Shown one piece after another: positions 15,301 to 20,971 of a stretch of DNA of 32,422 bases. Both the position numbers and the translations under genes were made by a program. Source of the stretch: Gammaproteobacteria bacterium (GTDB lineage Bacteria; Pseudomonadota; Gammaproteobacteria; SZUA-229); the NCBI GenBank assembly GCA_029881795.1, contig JAOULX010000020.1, forward strand, positions 1 through 32,422. The letters are read 5' to 3'. How positions within the stretch are numbered: position 1 is the stretch's first letter; each line of letters begins with the position of its first letter. The notes below the pieces were generated by a model. It had not been told where the DNA came from. It searched no databases and was given only the letters and a program-made list of their open reading frames with translations.

Positions 15301-16320
15301 TTACCTATCTAAAATATGTTCTAATTGCTTATCAATCCGCTGCGTCAGGTTTTCTTCGACCTGATGCACCGCTGTTTCAATGGCTTTAGAAAAAGCAAAA
15401 ACATCTGCTCCGCCGTGACTTTTGATAACAATACCACGTAAACCCAGTAAACTGGCACCATTATATACCCGCGGGTCAATTCTGGCTTTAAGCGCCTTTA
15501 ATACCGGCAATGCAATCAATGCTGCCAGTTTGTTATACCAGTTACGTTTAAATTCGTCCTTCATAAACTGGGTGATCATCTTTGCCACGCCTTCGGCAGT
15601 CTTTAATGAGACATTACCAACAAAACCATCACAGACCACTACATCAATCGATGACTGGTAAATATCATCACCTTCAACGTAACCAACGTAATTAATATCC
15701 TTAACCGCCGACAACACTTCATCGGCTTCTTTAACCTGAGTATTACCTTTTAATGCTTCAGAACCGACATTTAACAGACCGACTTTCGGAGCCGGATTAT
15801 TATCCATCGCCTGCGCCAGTACCGAACCCATAACCGCAAACTGCATTAAATGCTGTGCACTGCAATCAACGTTTGCACCCAGATCGAGCATATGAGTATG
15901 ACCGTTTGATGATGGCAGGGTCGAGATAATAGCTGGCCGGTCGATGCCTTTTAATGTTTTAAGCACGAACTTGGCAGTAGCCATTAAAGCCCCTGTATTA
16001 CCAGCACTGACCACTGCATCGGCCTTTTTATCATGCAACAGATTAATCGCGACGCGCATTGAAGAATCTTTTTTCTTGCGCAGAGCCATCGACGGCGCAT
16101 CATGCATTTCCACTTTTTCAGAAGCATGATGAATAGTCAGGCGATCACTTACTGAGCGGTCCAGGGAAGTTATATAGGTTTCAAGAAGCTGTTGATCACC
16201 AACAAGAATAATCTTTAAGGATTTATTTGTTTTCAGGACTTTAACAGCGGCGGGAATGACGACATCCGGGCCGAAATCACCACCCATTGCGTCTATTGCG
16301 ATAATCGGTTTATCCGACAT
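15301..16320 (-). CDS. plsX: Phosphate acyltransferase PlsX
   Basis: Converts acyl-ACP to acyl-phosphate for glycerol-3-phosphate acylation by PlsY at the membrane. The 339-aa product begins with [19 protein letters not shown] and carries the conserved [19 protein letters not shown] and [17 protein letters not shown] blocks. The ATG follows the rpmF terminator T-run by about 14 bases with only GGAAAAA as ribosome site. Expression therefore depends on read-through of that terminator or on an unseen promoter. It is the third gene of the canonical yceD-rpmF-plsX-fabH order. Confidence 0.97.
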
Positions 16321-16335
16321 AAATTTTTTCCATAA

Positions 16336-16363
16336 AAAAACGCGGGCCTAAGCCCGCGTTTTT
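16336..16363 (-). terminator. Rho-independent terminator between rpmF and plsX
   Basis: A 12-bp perfect stem (AAAAACGCGGGC / GCCCGCGTTTTT) has a 4-base loop and, on the minus strand, a T7 run just after it. It lies 10 bases after the rpmF stop and 15 before the plsX ATG. It probably lets most transcripts stop after L32 and passes a fraction on to plsX-fabH. Confidence 0.85.
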
Positions 16364-16373
16364 AACGTGTGAA

Positions 16374-16565
16374 TTACTCTTCGCTGGCTTCAGCTTTCTT
16401 TTCAATTACCTGTTTACCACGGTAAAAACCATCAGCACTAACGTGATGACGTAAATGCGTTTCACCAGTAGTAGGCTCAATTGAAACCGTCTTACCAGTA
16501 AGTGAATCATGAGAACGACGCATACCGCGTCTTGAACGAGTAACTCGACTCTTTTGAACAGCCAT
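16374..16565 (-). CDS. rpmF: 50S ribosomal protein L32
   Basis: A 63-aa basic ribosomal protein starting [20 protein letters not shown], with the [17 protein letters not shown] core. It has no cysteines, so it is the zinc-independent (C-minus) form. AGGAG lies nine bases before the ATG. It sits between yceD and plsX as in E. coli and is followed by a strong terminator. The C-terminal EKKAEASEE tail is slightly longer and more acidic than in E. coli. Confidence 0.97.
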
Positions 16566-16629
16566 TATATGACTCCTGATTAAATAATCTAAAATTTACG
16601 TTAACTGTGAAAACTATCGTTTTAAATTT

Positions 16630-17142
16630 TCACAACAAATCTTTTAATACCGCAAAAGGATTGGGCTTTTTAACCGCCTCTTCCTGCTGATGCTCTGCCG
16701 GCACTGCTTCAAATTCCTTTACATAATCAGAACAGTCTGAATCATGTGTCGCAATTATAGGCACTGCCAGTATTAATTCATCTTCAATAACATCCGGTAA
16801 GTAATGACGACCTTCAGTCATTAAGGCCTCATACTGCTCCGGCAGTCTGCCAATCTGAGACTCATTGTCGACCAATGCCAGCAAAAACTCAGTATTTAAT
16901 GACACCGTTGTTGAATCCAGACAACGCTGACACTGCATCTCTACATCAACCGACACAATGCCTTTAATAAAGCGAATTCTGCCGTCTCGACCAAATTCAA
17001 GTTCAGCCTTAACCTCACCACCATCAGCCGCCAGCATCGTTAATAAACGCGGCATTTTAGCAACAGGCCAGTAACCCGACATTGTTGCTGATTTATCAGC
17101 TAGCTGATACAAGTCACAATATTCTGGTAAGCGGCTTTGCAT
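16630..17142 (-). CDS. yceD: YceD family protein (DUF177), 23S rRNA accumulation protein
   Basis: YceD homologues are needed for normal 23S rRNA accumulation and are almost always placed before rpmF. The 170-aa product shows the family motif CQRCLDS (about 99-105), the VEDEL/VIEDELILAVPIIATHDSDCSD block and the C-terminal KPNPFAVLKDLL ending that matches E. coli YceD. The start at 17142 gives an N-terminus of the family length. No Shine-Dalgarno precedes it, and a near-consensus promoter ends nine bases upstream, so the message is probably close to leaderless. It is divergent from yceF (maf), as in E. coli. Confidence 0.93.
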   Translation of the reverse strand: MQSRLPEYCDLYQLADKSATMSGYWPVAKMPRLLTMLAADGGEVKAELEFGRDGRIRFIKGIVSVDVEMQCQRCLDSTTVSLNTEFLLALVDNESQIGRLPEQYEALMTEGRHYLPDVIEDELILAVPIIATHDSDCSDYVKEFEAVPAEHQQEEAVKKPNPFAVLKDLL

Positions 17143-17151
17143 AAGCAGACA

Positions 17152-17180
17152 ATAATATAATTATTAGAGCCTTCTGTCAA
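17152..17180 (-). promoter_or_regulatory. Near-consensus sigma-70 promoter of yceD-rpmF(-plsX-fabH)
   Basis: On the minus strand, TTGACA, an exact 17-base spacer and TATTAT. This is the best promoter seen in the window. Transcription should begin about 7 bases after the -10 box, around 17145, leaving only about three bases before the yceD ATG. Confidence 0.8.
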
Positions 17181-17291
17181 AGAAAAACGTTAATATTCAA
17201 TAGCTTCCACCGGATAAAACAAATCTCACTATAAAGATAATGTCAATTAGCGTAATATCGTCTAACTATCAGAAAAATAGGAGGTTTTTGA

Positions 17292-17325
17292 CGCTGATCA
17301 GGGTGTTATTTCTGGCAGATCAGCG
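17292..17325. promoter_or_regulatory. Inverted CGCTGATC sites between yceD and yceF
   Basis: CGCTGATC (17292-17299) and its reverse complement GATCAGCG (17318-17325) are separated by 18 bases in the divergent spacer. Extending each half gives CGCTGATC(A/T)G on both sides. A TTGCGA-N17-ATTAAT promoter guess for yceF (17329-17357) lies just downstream, so this could be an operator or a weak hairpin. Both readings are inference. Confidence 0.35.
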
Positions 17326-17372
17326 GTTTTGCGATAACTTCTTACAATTTAATTAATATTTGAGTGATTTTT

Positions 17373-17948
17373 ATGCAATTAATTCTCGGCTCCTCCAGCC
17401 CTTTTAGAAAACAATTATTACAACAACTGGATCTTGATTTTATCACCGATAGCCCTGACATCGACGAGAGCCCATTACAAAACGAAAGCGTCGAAGAGAT
17501 GGTATTGCGCTTGTCGATTGAAAAAGCCCGTGAAATTGCAAAAAGACATAGCGACAGCCTGGTTATAGGCTCAGACCAGAGCGCCCTGCTCAATGGCAAA
17601 GTCCTGCATAAACCCGGCAATCACGAGACTGCTGTGAGCCAGCTAAAAGACGCATCCGGCCAGACCGTGGTGTTTCAGACCGGACTTTGCCTTTTTAATA
17701 CCAATAGCAACACCTATCAGAGCAAACTGGTGCCTTATAGTGTTACCTTCAGGACCTTAACCGATGCTATGATCGAGAATTATCTGCTCAAAGAAAAGCC
17801 GTATAACTGCGCTGGCAGTTTTAAATCTGAGGGCCTGGGCATTGCCCTGTTTGAAAAAATGCAGGGCACGGATCCTTCAGCACTGATTGGTTTGCCTTTA
17901 ATAGAATTAGTCAATATGCTTGAACAAGAGTCGTTCTCAGTGTTATAG
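17373..17948 (+). CDS. yceF: Maf-like nucleotide pyrophosphatase, YceF type (m7GTP)
   Basis: Hydrolyses modified nucleoside triphosphates such as 7-methyl-GTP to the monophosphate, cleansing the pool. The 191-aa product has the Maf entry motif SSSPFRKQLL (7-16), the IDESPLQNE segment, the GSDQSALLNGKV loop and CAGSFKSEGLGIALFEKMQGTDPSALIGLPL. The CAGSFKSEG version, rather than the dTTP/UTP-type sequence, matches the E. coli YceF subfamily. The ATG at 17373 is preferred to a GTG three codons earlier because MQLILGSSSP matches family starts. It is divergent from yceD as in E. coli and heads a three-gene plus-strand run. Confidence 0.93.
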   Translation: MQLILGSSSPFRKQLLQQLDLDFITDSPDIDESPLQNESVEEMVLRLSIEKAREIAKRHSDSLVIGSDQSALLNGKVLHKPGNHETAVSQLKDASGQTVVFQTGLCLFNTNSNTYQSKLVPYSVTFRTLTDAMIENYLLKEKPYNCAGSFKSEGLGIALFEKMQGTDPSALIGLPLIELVNMLEQESFSVL

Positions 17949-17982
17949 ATCACCGAACAACAACAAAACGAAAATACAAATT

Positions 17983-18492
17983 ATGGACAACAATAACAAA
18001 CACCCACTGTGGGAAAATATTTTCCGCCGCAAGGATGACAGGATTACCGAAATCTGTCGCTTGTGGTCTTCAACACCACTCTTTAAACGGATCCCTCAGT
18101 TATATATCCGCAGACTGGTTAAAAACATGCACCCGCGCTTTTATAAAACCAATGAAAGCATTTTTACTACCGGAGATATCGGTGCCGGCGCTGCCATCAT
18201 CAAATCCGGTGAAATCAATATCATGGCGGGAAATAATGTTCTGGCAAATCTTAAAGCCGGTGATTTTTTTGGTGAAGTGTCACTGGTAGTTGATGAACCC
18301 AGAACAGCTGATGCCATAGCCAGTACCGACTGTGAACTGATTTTTTTTCTGCGCACAGATCTTGAAGAATGGGTTCACAGCTCACCCAAACAAGGTGCTC
18401 AATTAATGGCAAATATCTCGCGTGTACTGGCTGGCAGACTGCGTCATGCCAATGATATGCTGACCGAAAAAAACAACTCCTCCTCGCTATGA
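17983..18492 (+). CDS. Stand-alone cyclic-nucleotide-binding domain protein
   Basis: A 169-aa soluble protein with one cNMP-binding beta-barrel (about 50-135). The phosphate-binding cassette is intact: FGEVS at 96-100 and PRTAD at 106-110, with E98 and R107 in the positions that contact cyclic nucleotide ribose and phosphate. A short C-terminal helix follows (to 160), but there is no helix-turn-helix, so it is not a CRP-type regulator. The ATG at 17983 avoids overlap with yceF; a TTG at 17920 is less likely. Its stop overlaps the next ATG (ATGA), coupling it to the PerM-like membrane protein. It may regulate that protein in trans; this is inference. Confidence 0.85.
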   Translation: MDNNNKHPLWENIFRRKDDRITEICRLWSSTPLFKRIPQLYIRRLVKNMHPRFYKTNESIFTTGDIGAGAAIIKSGEINIMAGNNVLANLKAGDFFGEVSLVVDEPRTADAIASTDCELIFFLRTDLEEWVHSSPKQGAQLMANISRVLAGRLRHANDMLTEKNNSSSL

Positions 18493-19538
18493 TTAAAATT
18501 GCCGATAAACCCTTACTCAGAAGCCTGGTTATTTTTTCTGCCTTTTTAACGGCCGGTGGCATCTGCGCCTATTTGCTAGCACCATTATTGATACCGATTA
18601 TCTTATCCTTCGCGCTGTATGCCTTATTCGGTCCGTTAAGCGGCTATCTGCAACGCAAAGGTTTTAATAACAGCGCCTCGGCACTTCTGGTATTACTGCT
18701 ACTGGTACTGATTAGCATCATAGGCATTTCGGTATTATTTCCTATGCTGGCAGAGCAACTGCTTATTTTACAAACTAAAATGCCAAAACTGTGGGAATCA
18801 CTGACCGTGTTAAGCGATCAGATCCGGCTTTTGCTGACCAACTACGGTATTAAATTTGACACCTCGACCATCACTAAACCAGTGATGAATATGTCATCGG
18901 AATGGAGTAAGGACGCAGTCTTTAAGGTATCTAATTTATTAATTGATATGTCGGTGACAGTGGTACTGGTACCGCTGTTTACCTTCTTTTTAATTCGTGA
19001 CTATAAGCAATTACGAAACCAGGCACTTGATCTGTTACCCAATAGCAGCTTTGAATTGGGCTGGCTTATTTATTACCGGGTCACGAAAAAACTGGAAATC
19101 TATATTCGCGGCATCATGTTACAGTCTGGAATTATGGCGATTGTAGTCTCTGTTGGATTTTATTTGACCGGCTTAGAGTCGCCAATTTTACTAGGTACGA
19201 TTGCTGGTTTATTAAACCTGATTCCTTACATCGGCCCGTTGCTGGCAATGGTTCCGCCAATCATTATTGCCCTGGGAACACCGGTGTTTGACCCGATGCT
19301 AATTACCGCAGCTGTCGGCGTGATTATTGCCGCGCAAATCATCGATAACGTGATAGTAGTGCCTGCTGTCATCGCCAACGCCGTCAACCTGCACCCGATT
19401 ACTGTCATTGTTGGTATCATTATTTTCGGAAACTTTTTTGGTTTTATCGGCATGATAATCGCCATTCCGGTGCTGGCAACCAGCAATATCATTCTGACAG
19501 GCCTGAGAAAAGGCCTGAAAAAAGACATTATGGCCTGA
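18489..19538 (+). CDS. AI-2E/PerM family membrane protein
   Basis: A 349-aa inner-membrane protein of the UPF0118 (AI-2E transporter/PerM) family. It has hydrophobic N-terminal helices (about 8-45 and 60-90), a soluble segment (about 95-145), another helix near 150-170 (VVLVPLFTFFLIRDY, where the FFLIRD motif is typical), and five closely packed C-terminal segments from about 205 to 340, including LLNLIPYIGPLLAMVPPIIIAL. Family members have been proposed as exporters or Na+/H+ antiporters; the substrate cannot be read from sequence. It overlaps the cyclic-nucleotide-binding gene by four bases and ends at a shared hairpin with the convergent protease gene. Confidence 0.92.
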   Translation: MIKIADKPLLRSLVIFSAFLTAGGICAYLLAPLLIPIILSFALYALFGPLSGYLQRKGFNNSASALLVLLLLVLISIIGISVLFPMLAEQLLILQTKMPKLWESLTVLSDQIRLLLTNYGIKFDTSTITKPVMNMSSEWSKDAVFKVSNLLIDMSVTVVLVPLFTFFLIRDYKQLRNQALDLLPNSSFELGWLIYYRVTKKLEIYIRGIMLQSGIMAIVVSVGFYLTGLESPILLGTIAGLLNLIPYIGPLLAMVPPIIIALGTPVFDPMLITAAVGVIIAAQIIDNVIVVPAVIANAVNLHPITVIVGIIIFGNFFGFIGMIIAIPVLATSNIILTGLRKGLKKDIMA

Positions 19539-19544
19539 TTAAAT

Positions 19545-19568
19545 AACGCGCTGTGGATTCAGCGCGTT
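19545..19568. terminator. Hairpin at convergent gene ends
   Basis: A 9-bp perfect stem (AACGCGCTG / CAGCGCGTT) has a 6-base loop. It lies just after the PerM-like gene and overlaps the last codons of the opposite-strand protease gene. The T-tracts are short on both sides, so it is a modest bidirectional terminator. Confidence 0.6.
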
Positions 19569-20197
19569 TGTAGCAGCATGGTATTACCGCTCTTCTCTAC
19601 TTTTAACTGCTTGAGAAAAGACATACCAAGCAAAGCATCCGTCGGATAAGCGCCTTCAATCACCACCGCCAATACATCAGACTGAGATATATCACCGACC
19701 TTAACCGACTTCAGTTTAACAACATAGGCCTGTGCAACCCCTGATGCAGTCTGTGTAGTGGTAGGCTTTCCGGTCAGACGATAACGAATATTGAGTTTTT
19801 TTGCCTGCTCCGAACTCATCGCAACCGCCGTCGCTCCGGTATCAACAAGAAAACGTACAGCACGGCCATTAATTGTGCCGGTAGTCTGGAACATACCCCT
19901 GCTGTCAGCATATATAGTTTTAGATTGCGTAGCCGATTTTTTGAAATCTAAAGAAACAGCCATTCCCATTTTGTAATTAGAACGCTCGCCGTTTATTTCC
20001 AGCATCACATCATTAGCAACCGGTCGGATATAACTAACACCCTGAGCTGACTGGCCCTGTTTGATGATATATTGCTGACCATCAATCAGTAGCACAACCT
20101 TGCCCGGAAACATACCCACAACCTGTACCGACTCAGCAGCAAACAGGTTTTGCCCAAAGAACATTAACAGCAGAAACCATCGTGACCGGTTTGTCAT
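19559..20197 (-). CDS. Periplasmic retropepsin-like aspartic protease (TIGR02281 type)
   Basis: A 212-aa protein with a signal peptide (positively charged start, hydrophobic 7-19, cleavage probably after AAE or FAA near 21). An N-terminal beta module (about 24-85: GMFPGKVVLLIDGQQYIIKQGQ..GV) resembles the homology region of GspC-like proteins. The C-terminal clan AA protease domain (about 100-212) has the catalytic motif FLVDTGAT with D119, the TASG flap and the LLGMSFL ending. It is a single-lobe protease and so must act as a dimer; no substrate is known to me. GGAG precedes the ATG. It is last in the riboflavin-thiamine operon, 12 bases after the outer-membrane-type gene. Confidence 0.85.
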   Translation of the reverse strand: MTNRSRWFLLLMFFGQNLFAAESVQVVGMFPGKVVLLIDGQQYIIKQGQSAQGVSYIRPVANDVMLEINGERSNYKMGMAVSLDFKKSATQSKTIYADSRGMFQTTGTINGRAVRFLVDTGATAVAMSSEQAKKLNIRYRLTGKPTTTQTASGVAQAYVVKLKSVKVGDISQSDVLAVVIEGAYPTDALLGMSFLKQLKVEKSGNTMLLQTR

Positions 20198-20209
20198 ATT
20201 ATGACTCCA

Positions 20210-20971
20210 TTAAAAGCTATACCTGATTCCGCTTTTATAACTGCTGTCATTTTTTTCAAGGCTGTTAAACGGTTTATTATCGTAGCTCACATCCATCGTG
20301 ATAAAATAAACCAGATCACTGACCACACTGAATTCAAAACTCAGTTGTTCAAGCGCACGGTAATCAGCAGCCGACTCTATATCGGGCTGATAGTAAGTGG
20401 TAGACAGAAAATTAACACCCTTAGTGACGCTGTACTTATAGGTAAAATAAATATTAGCGCGATTGATATTATCATATGTAACAGCACCTGCCGGTGGCTT
20501 TAATTCCTCACGCGAATGAAAAATACCCAAGCCCAGCTTTGCATAGCTATTTTTATTTTTTTCAAGTAACTGAAACCACATACCGGCACCCAGTAATGAG
20601 CGCAGTTGCAAGTCGGCAAATTCATTTTTTTCGAGCTGAAAAAAACTCTCCCAGCTAGATCTTGCTTTCGCGTTATTAACAAAACGGTAATGCATAAAAG
20701 ATTTATCGGTACTTTTAACACCTAAACTTTTTGCATAATCATACTTAAGTACCAGAAACTGTGTGGCGATATCGTTCCATTGCAAGCGACTGCCGAGCGA
20801 ACCCGAGCGAATTTCGGAGTTACCACTGACGCCGGACAAATCAAATTCTAGCTGCCCCTGAAAAGGTTTACTTTCTGACAAGGAATTAATTTTTTCGATA
20901 TTAACAATAGCGCTCAGCGGAGCTGCATACACAAACATGACTAAAAAAAATCCCGCGTAAACTCTAAACAT
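20210..20971 (-). CDS. Secreted outer-membrane-type protein, DUF481-like
   Basis: A 253-aa protein with a signal peptide (hydrophobic 5-20, likely cleavage after the APLSA region). The rest is alternating beta strands: FQGQLEFDLSGVSGNSEIRSGSLGSRLQW, ATQFLVLKYDYAKS, SFMHYRFVNNAK, then GAGMWFQLLEKN..YAKLGLGIFHSREE, ending in phenylalanine (GIRYSF) as in BAM substrates. The GNSEIRSG segment and a barrel of about 12 strands suggest the DUF481/YdiY family, but the match is by eye. It overlaps the end of pgpA by eight bases. Function is unknown. Confidence 0.7.
   Translation of the reverse strand: MFRVYAGFFLVMFVYAAPLSAIVNIEKINSLSESKPFQGQLEFDLSGVSGNSEIRSGSLGSRLQWNDIATQFLVLKYDYAKSLGVKSTDKSFMHYRFVNNAKARSSWESFFQLEKNEFADLQLRSLLGAGMWFQLLEKNKNSYAKLGLGIFHSREELKPPAGAVTYDNINRANIYFTYKYSVTKGVNFLSTTYYQPDIESAADYRALEQLSFEFSVVSDLVYFITMDVSYDNKPFNSLEKNDSSYKSGIRYSF

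Follow-up and report, generated by a model that had tools for sequence, protein, structure and literature searches.

Two linked questions are raised by the yceD-rpmF locus: where does its messenger begin, and does the first gene have a 5' leader at all? In the window (the whole stretch of 32,422 nucleotides that was analysed) yceD is followed by rpmF, coding for ribosomal protein L32, and then by plsX and fabH, with the divergently transcribed maf starting from 17373. The start codon of yceD is an ATG (17142-17140). It is preceded on the minus strand by TTGACA (17180-17175), a 17 nt spacer, TATTAT (17157-17152) and the nine bases TGTCTGCTT (17151-17143). The preliminary description of this DNA had reported exactly this pair of hexamers ending nine bases before the ATG and the lack of a Shine-Dalgarno (SD) sequence. 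Both observations hold, as the hexamers and their spacing are exact and no SD was found within 20 nt upstream of the ATG. With the -10 element ending 9 nt before the ATG, the 5' end of the yceD RNA should lie at the AUG or within a few nucleotides of it. The description had therefore proposed a near-leaderless message, to be checked by the spacing in related genomes. The comparison strongly supports this proposal, since the arrangement is present in 148/172 sampled genomes of the class against 0/28 from other classes. Our reading, to which we assign a probability of about 0.72, is that a growth-type sigma-70 promoter some 9 nt before the AUG would produce a leaderless yceD-rpmF mRNA, with little YceD and much L32 made from one transcript. 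The features on which this reading is built are collected in Table 1.

Table 1. Features of the yceD-rpmF transcription unit in the window
Feature	Position	Strand	Basis
-35 element TTGACA of the yceD promoter	17175..17180	-	Sequence; kept as TTTGACA across sampled class genomes
-10 element TATTAT, 17 nt spacer to the -35 element	17152..17157	-	Sequence; genus alignment (n=4 genomes) retains TATATTATT, spacer varies
Discriminator and predicted start region TGTCTGCTT; predicted leader of 0-4 nt, without SD	17143..17151	-	Start point predicted
yceD (DUF177, large ribosomal RNA subunit accumulation protein), first cistron, predicted to be leaderless	16630..17142	-	PF02620, E 1.1e-17
SD AGGAGT of rpmF	16572..16577	-	Sequence; rpmF control set
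rpmF, ribosomal protein L32, SD-led second cistron	16374..16565	-	PF01783, E 3.7e-20
Probable intrinsic terminator behind yceD-rpmF: 12-bp inverted repeat and T run, between rpmF and plsX	16334..16363	-	Read by eye

The yceD promoter scores 11/12 with a spacer of 17 and is the top one among 14 promoter-like sites located in 15500-20500, a region that yields 11.2 such sites of any quality when shuffled. It is also the sole match of at least 11/12 with a spacer of 17 on either strand of the whole window. However, 20 mononucleotide shuffles gave a mean of 0.35 such matches per window, so the quality of the promoter alone is not rare. The pattern TTGACA-N17-TANNAT-N7-11-ATG was matched once in the draft genome of 2,928,332 bases (27 contigs), at yceD, and its reversed form had no matches in the same 2.93 Mb. 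Chance was dropped as an explanation, because promoters of this quality are not rare, but the position and the conservation of this one are.

Three transcription start candidates follow from a -10 element ending at 17152: G 17146, C 17145 and A 17142, corresponding to leaders of 4, 3 and 0 nt. Whichever of them is used, the yceD leader in this organism is predicted to be 0-4 nt long. A start about three bases upstream of the ATG, as given in the preliminary description, corresponds to C 17145 and so is among the candidates, but the sequence does not single out one nucleotide, and G 17146 and A 17142 are candidates too. The T before the ATG is strongly kept among relatives (87% at -1 and 80% at -2), which together with the purine A of the ATG makes a start at the AUG itself plausible. 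However, such a start would be 10 nt away from the -10 element, at the long end of the usual start-selection range.

An abutting promoter was defined as a match of at least 9/12 with a spacer of 16-18 nt (the only lengths searched) and a -10 element ending 6-12 nt before the yceD start. The organism was assigned to this class by its nearest named relative, a Gammaproteobacteria MAG. The sample of 172 Gammaproteobacteria genomes was made up of four sets: 30 genomes of the organism's own family, 106 class members with better and 32 with weaker scores, and the named species E. coli, Serratia, Proteus and Aeromonas. The promoter was found in 25/30, 95/106, 24/32 and 4/4 of them, respectively, while shuffles preserving single-base content only gave means of 0.64, 0.83, 0.35 and 0.03, about 1.8 in sum. 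The family set represents the best 30 of 51 matches. The 106 better-scoring genomes are 26 loci and 80 further places taken from the better-scoring matches listed (290 of 370 genomes matched), and the weaker-scoring set holds the best 30 of 61 matches in 78 hand-listed genomes, supplemented with two from the phylum search. As the sets were drawn from best-scoring matches, the weakest homologues and genomes without a match are under-sampled. For L001-L141 the yceD start was set by homology and for L142-L201 by how far it lies from the Pfam match, ATG being preferred in both. A few of these starts are wrong or doubtful: L020, L021 and L132 fit with another ATG, and L151, L155 and L156 look mis-set.

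Of the 148 abutting promoters, 113 have exactly 9 nt between the -10 element and the start codon; the spacer is 17 nt long in 117, 18 in 30 and 16 in one. Alignment of the regions on the ATG shows conservation of the -35 element as TTTGACA, the -10 element, a C/G-rich stretch and TT-ATG, but not, across the class, of the spacer or of anything further upstream. The same pattern is seen within the genus, where an alignment of four genomes has invariant hexamers and last bases before the ATG and a variable spacer. In the 113 cases with the 9 nt distance, the first seven bases of the discriminator have a mean G+C content of 0.82 vs 0.51 upstream (higher in 104/113); in the 23 cases with upstream G+C below 0.40 the values are 0.76 vs 0.33. 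The first 40 nt of the predicted yceD message fold less than internal stretches in 159/172 genomes, which suits recognition of a 5'-terminal AUG. Weak folding near the start is also common at ordinary starts. The abutting promoter, unusual for bacteria of this class, has apparently persisted in most of its sampled members over a very long period. The 24 genomes without an abutting promoter count against our reading: five of them fit with a nearby in-frame start and 19 still fail, 11 of the latter retaining a -10-like hexamer 8-12 nt before the start with a weak -35 element.

Downstream genes of the same loci were used as controls. A sequence pattern identified rpmF in 52 and plsX in 59 of the 140 loci; the remaining loci were left unused. 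No abutting promoter was found at the starts of either gene (0/52 and 0/59). An SD of at least four contiguous bases precedes 51/52 rpmF starts, 18/59 plsX starts and 8/140 yceD starts (none of at least five at yceD; 17/172 in the wider set). Since plsX is a weak SD control with its 18/59, we rely on rpmF here. In 60 class genomes the strict pattern TTGACA-N17-TANNNT-N8-10-ATG gave 70 matches, 37 at yceD and 33 elsewhere. These genomes were hand-picked after their yceD regions had been viewed, which affects the count at yceD but not the one elsewhere. The reversed pattern gave 37 matches, close to the 33 found elsewhere, so the excess over chance in these 60 genomes lies at yceD. Sixteen of the 60 have no strict-pattern match, including G005, G007 and G018, the three members of the family outside the genus, which have a distance of 12 nt, and this also counts against our reading.

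Outside the class the picture is different. Among the other classes of the phylum an abutting yceD promoter was found in 0/28 genomes and an SD of at least four bases in 18/28, with start codons (19 ATG, 5 GTG and 4 TTG chosen) that are less certain than those within the class. This set is based on the best 30 of 111 matches; two of the 30, L198 and L201, are class members and were counted with the class, and the other 28 come from few families. One of these families, f176, provides an outgroup with a similar promoter: all six loci fetched (L184, L192, L196, L197, L199 and L200) carry TTGACC-N16-(G/C)ATAAT followed by a GC-rich stretch, but here the promoter lies 31-54 nt upstream of the yceD start and a GGAGG-type SD intervenes. 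Within one phylum, a similar promoter is thus found both with and without a leader, and this lineage constitutes a ready evolutionary control.

With the inverted repeat and its T run placed after rpmF and before plsX, the transcription unit is probably yceD-rpmF. Flanked by T/A runs, this repeat is a likely terminator which could work in both directions; the sequence scan did not list it, probably because its T run belongs to the stem. The E. coli yceD promoters are assigned to a yceD-rpmF unit as well (PMC13060810, PMC5049393), and longer E. coli mRNAs also continue into plsX according to a review (PMC3896788). As rpmF has its own AGGAGT (16577-16572), in line with the 51/52 rpmF starts that have an SD, only yceD would be leaderless. 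Leaderless initiation does not apply to the second cistron, L32, which the preliminary description had named as following yceD in the leaderless message.

Starting from what was observed directly (the promoter, its spacing, the lack of an SD at yceD, the conservation in the sampled class genomes and the SD of rpmF), we propose the following course of events. A sigma-70 promoter composed of TTTGACA, a spacer of mostly 17 nt, TANNAT and a mostly G+C-rich discriminator appears to be fixed about 9 nt before the yceD start, so that the 5' end of the yceD-rpmF mRNA would coincide with the AUG or precede it by no more than about 4 nt. Ribosomes would initiate on yceD in a leaderless, SD-independent way and at a low rate, a lower yield of YceD being reported for E. 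coli, and would use the SD of rpmF on the same message to make L32. A single growth-regulated promoter would then supply little assembly factor and much ribosomal protein, offering a simple way for one mRNA to yield two ribosome-related proteins in different amounts. Control of this promoter would be of the ppGpp type. In most relatives the yceD promoter resembles the stringent promoters of the rRNA P1 type in its consensus -35/-10 region and G+C-rich discriminator, and G+C-rich discriminators mark ppGpp-repressed promoters (PMC3293720). The window promoter differs in that its discriminator TGTCTGC is only moderately G+C-rich (4/7), which counts against our reading. A growth-transition table for E. 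coli O157 lists yceD (-2.86) and rpmF (-2.36) together, both with negative values (PMC2241611).

E. coli offers the closest comparison. Its yceD is orthologous, belongs to the same operon and has a TTGAC-N17-TAnnAT-like geometry nine bases before the ATG, being preceded in K-12 MG1655 by TTGACT-N17-TAATAT-GCGCGCCCT-ATG. Among 38 annotated genes in a 40-kb K-12 stretch, only yceD has this arrangement. The two loci differ in the discriminator (GCGCGCC in E. coli, TGTCTGC in the window) and in the sRNA gene SraB, which lies directly in front of yceD in E. coli but had no match at the window locus. The best support for the leaderless reading comes from a ribosome profiling study (PMC4378010), which states that E. 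coli yceD is "without 5'-noncoding leader" and has a lower translation efficiency. It presents yceD-rpmF as one operon whose genes are translated to different degrees; the method behind the 5' end is not given in the excerpts of it used here. Leaderless yceD of E. coli is thus already in print, in passing. Reading by 70S ribosomes, which the preliminary description pointed out for leaderless mRNAs, may apply to yceD; the only published effect found is this lower translation efficiency within the E. coli operon.

A nucleotide-resolution E. coli map lists five mRNAs with leaders shorter than 10 nt (dicA, pgpA, racR, rhlB and ymfK), three of them coding for prophage regulators, and yceD is absent from this list as given in the excerpts of the paper (PMC4681348), which counts against the leaderless reading. 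rhlB and pgpA resemble yceD in being chromosomal, non-prophage genes with a very short leader or none; their starts were mapped by RNA sequencing and RLM-RT-PCR, and the excerpts give no conservation across the class for them (PMC4681348). Reported counts of leaderless genes are 18 in E. coli, from a study of E. coli and Klebsiella (PMC3415461), and 33 in Salmonella (PMC3293720). The words leaderless, PA2971 and rpmF do not occur in a Pseudomonas aeruginosa map (PMC3460626), and yceD and rpmF are unnamed in the main text of the Cappable-seq paper (PMC4782308). Zheng 2011 (PMC3160421) predicted leaderless genes from a TA-like signal located about 10-12 bp before the start, with the same signature and logic as ours. 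In that work genome-wide signals indicated leaderless genes in only 15/239 gammaproteobacterial genomes, whereas we follow one gene and find its arrangement in most sampled members of the class. Leaderless yceD itself is of a known kind; for its class-wide conservation, no published report was found in literature searches covering titles and abstract openings, with supplementary leaderless-gene lists outside their scope. In Gammaproteobacteria leaderless mRNAs are considered rare, and the abutment of promoter and AUG at yceD is kept in most of the sampled members. This breadth makes the case worth following, and yceD constitutes a natural, testable substrate for asking why cells retain leaderless initiation.

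The alternative that survives best also accepts the abutting promoter but holds that its position is kept for growth-type control of rpmF transcription, the leaderlessness of yceD being a tolerated by-product without a regulatory role. We regard it as a possibility to be reckoned with, at clearly less than even odds. It would account for the conservation of the consensus elements and the G+C-rich discriminator, and an E. coli yceD mutant is reported to grow like the wild type on rich media (PMC5049393). On the other hand, nothing in promoter function requires an ATG 9 nt away. A leader left to drift would be expected to carry an SD in many lineages, yet an SD of at least four bases stands at only 17/172 yceD starts, and the outgroup f176 does have both a leader and an SD. 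A further extension of our reading, that the leaderless state of yceD is maintained throughout the Gammaproteobacteria as a device for feedback in which yceD translation tracks the state of the initiation machinery (free 70S, IF2/IF3 ratio, 30S shortage), appears unlikely in this full form. If it were true, a 23S rRNA accumulation factor would be made according to ribosome-assembly status, with L32 supplied by normal SD-led synthesis. Some putative regulatory role through the state of 70S ribosomes or initiation factors is possible.

Most YceD could also come from longer transcripts starting upstream, with the abutting promoter playing a minor part, which we consider improbable. E. coli is credited with two yceD promoters, yceDp1 and yceDp2 (PMC13060810), a point that counts against our reading. 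The SraB gene annotated just upstream of yceD in E. coli and the absence of yceD from the five-gene leaderless list (PMC4681348, in excerpts) speak for longer transcripts as well. However, annotated SraB of E. coli ends at 1146757, in the -35 element of yceD, behind a terminator-like hairpin recognised by eye. On the minus strand of the window, the interval 17180-17373 contained no further promoter-like site scoring 9/12 or more. Longer transcripts would, moreover, still have no SD for yceD.

A misassigned ATG, with the true start further inside yceD (an in-frame ATG is present at codon 21) and hence an ordinary leader, is hardly credible, since the LP motif of the conserved YceD N-terminus starts at residue 4-10 in 109/140 relatives with the chosen start and codons 2-20 differ among four congeners by 28 synonymous vs 12 non-synonymous pairwise codon changes. 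The ATG given in the preliminary description is upheld by these changes, by the PF02620 match (1.1e-17) and by a relative with 82% identity which aligns from residue 1; the frame of this relative stays open for only two codons further up. ATG stands at 169/172 chosen yceD starts in the class, a figure to which the preference for ATG in the choice procedure contributes.

Several features around the promoter are worth recording. In E. coli, SraB (L202 6590-6758, MG1655 1146589-1146757) has its annotated end within the first two bases of the yceD -35 element, and the T run of the terminator-like hairpin seen by eye at this end leads into TTTGACT. SraB termination may thus insulate the yceD promoter. 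At the gathering threshold the only Rfam match in the window is a tRNA at 16-102, and a scan with a lax threshold gave only two weak sub-threshold matches, Leu_leader and SorX, both falling on the inverted repeat between rpmF and plsX. A known structured RNA upstream of yceD was dropped as a candidate, because the Rfam matches in the window lie elsewhere. A hairpin CGCTGATC...GATCAGCG was seen by eye at 17292-17325 in the maf-yceD intergenic region; it matches no Rfam family. No class-wide upstream regulator site was seen at yceD, where conservation is limited to the core promoter, the discriminator and the start. Before the -35 element of yceD (17188-17209, minus strand) there is a non-coding block GGAA-N4-TTGAAnnnTAA. 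A same-strand upstream gene was dropped as its source, as the 16 loci examined share no open frame. The block occurs at the same offset in several loci of the family and is common to the family, not to the class.
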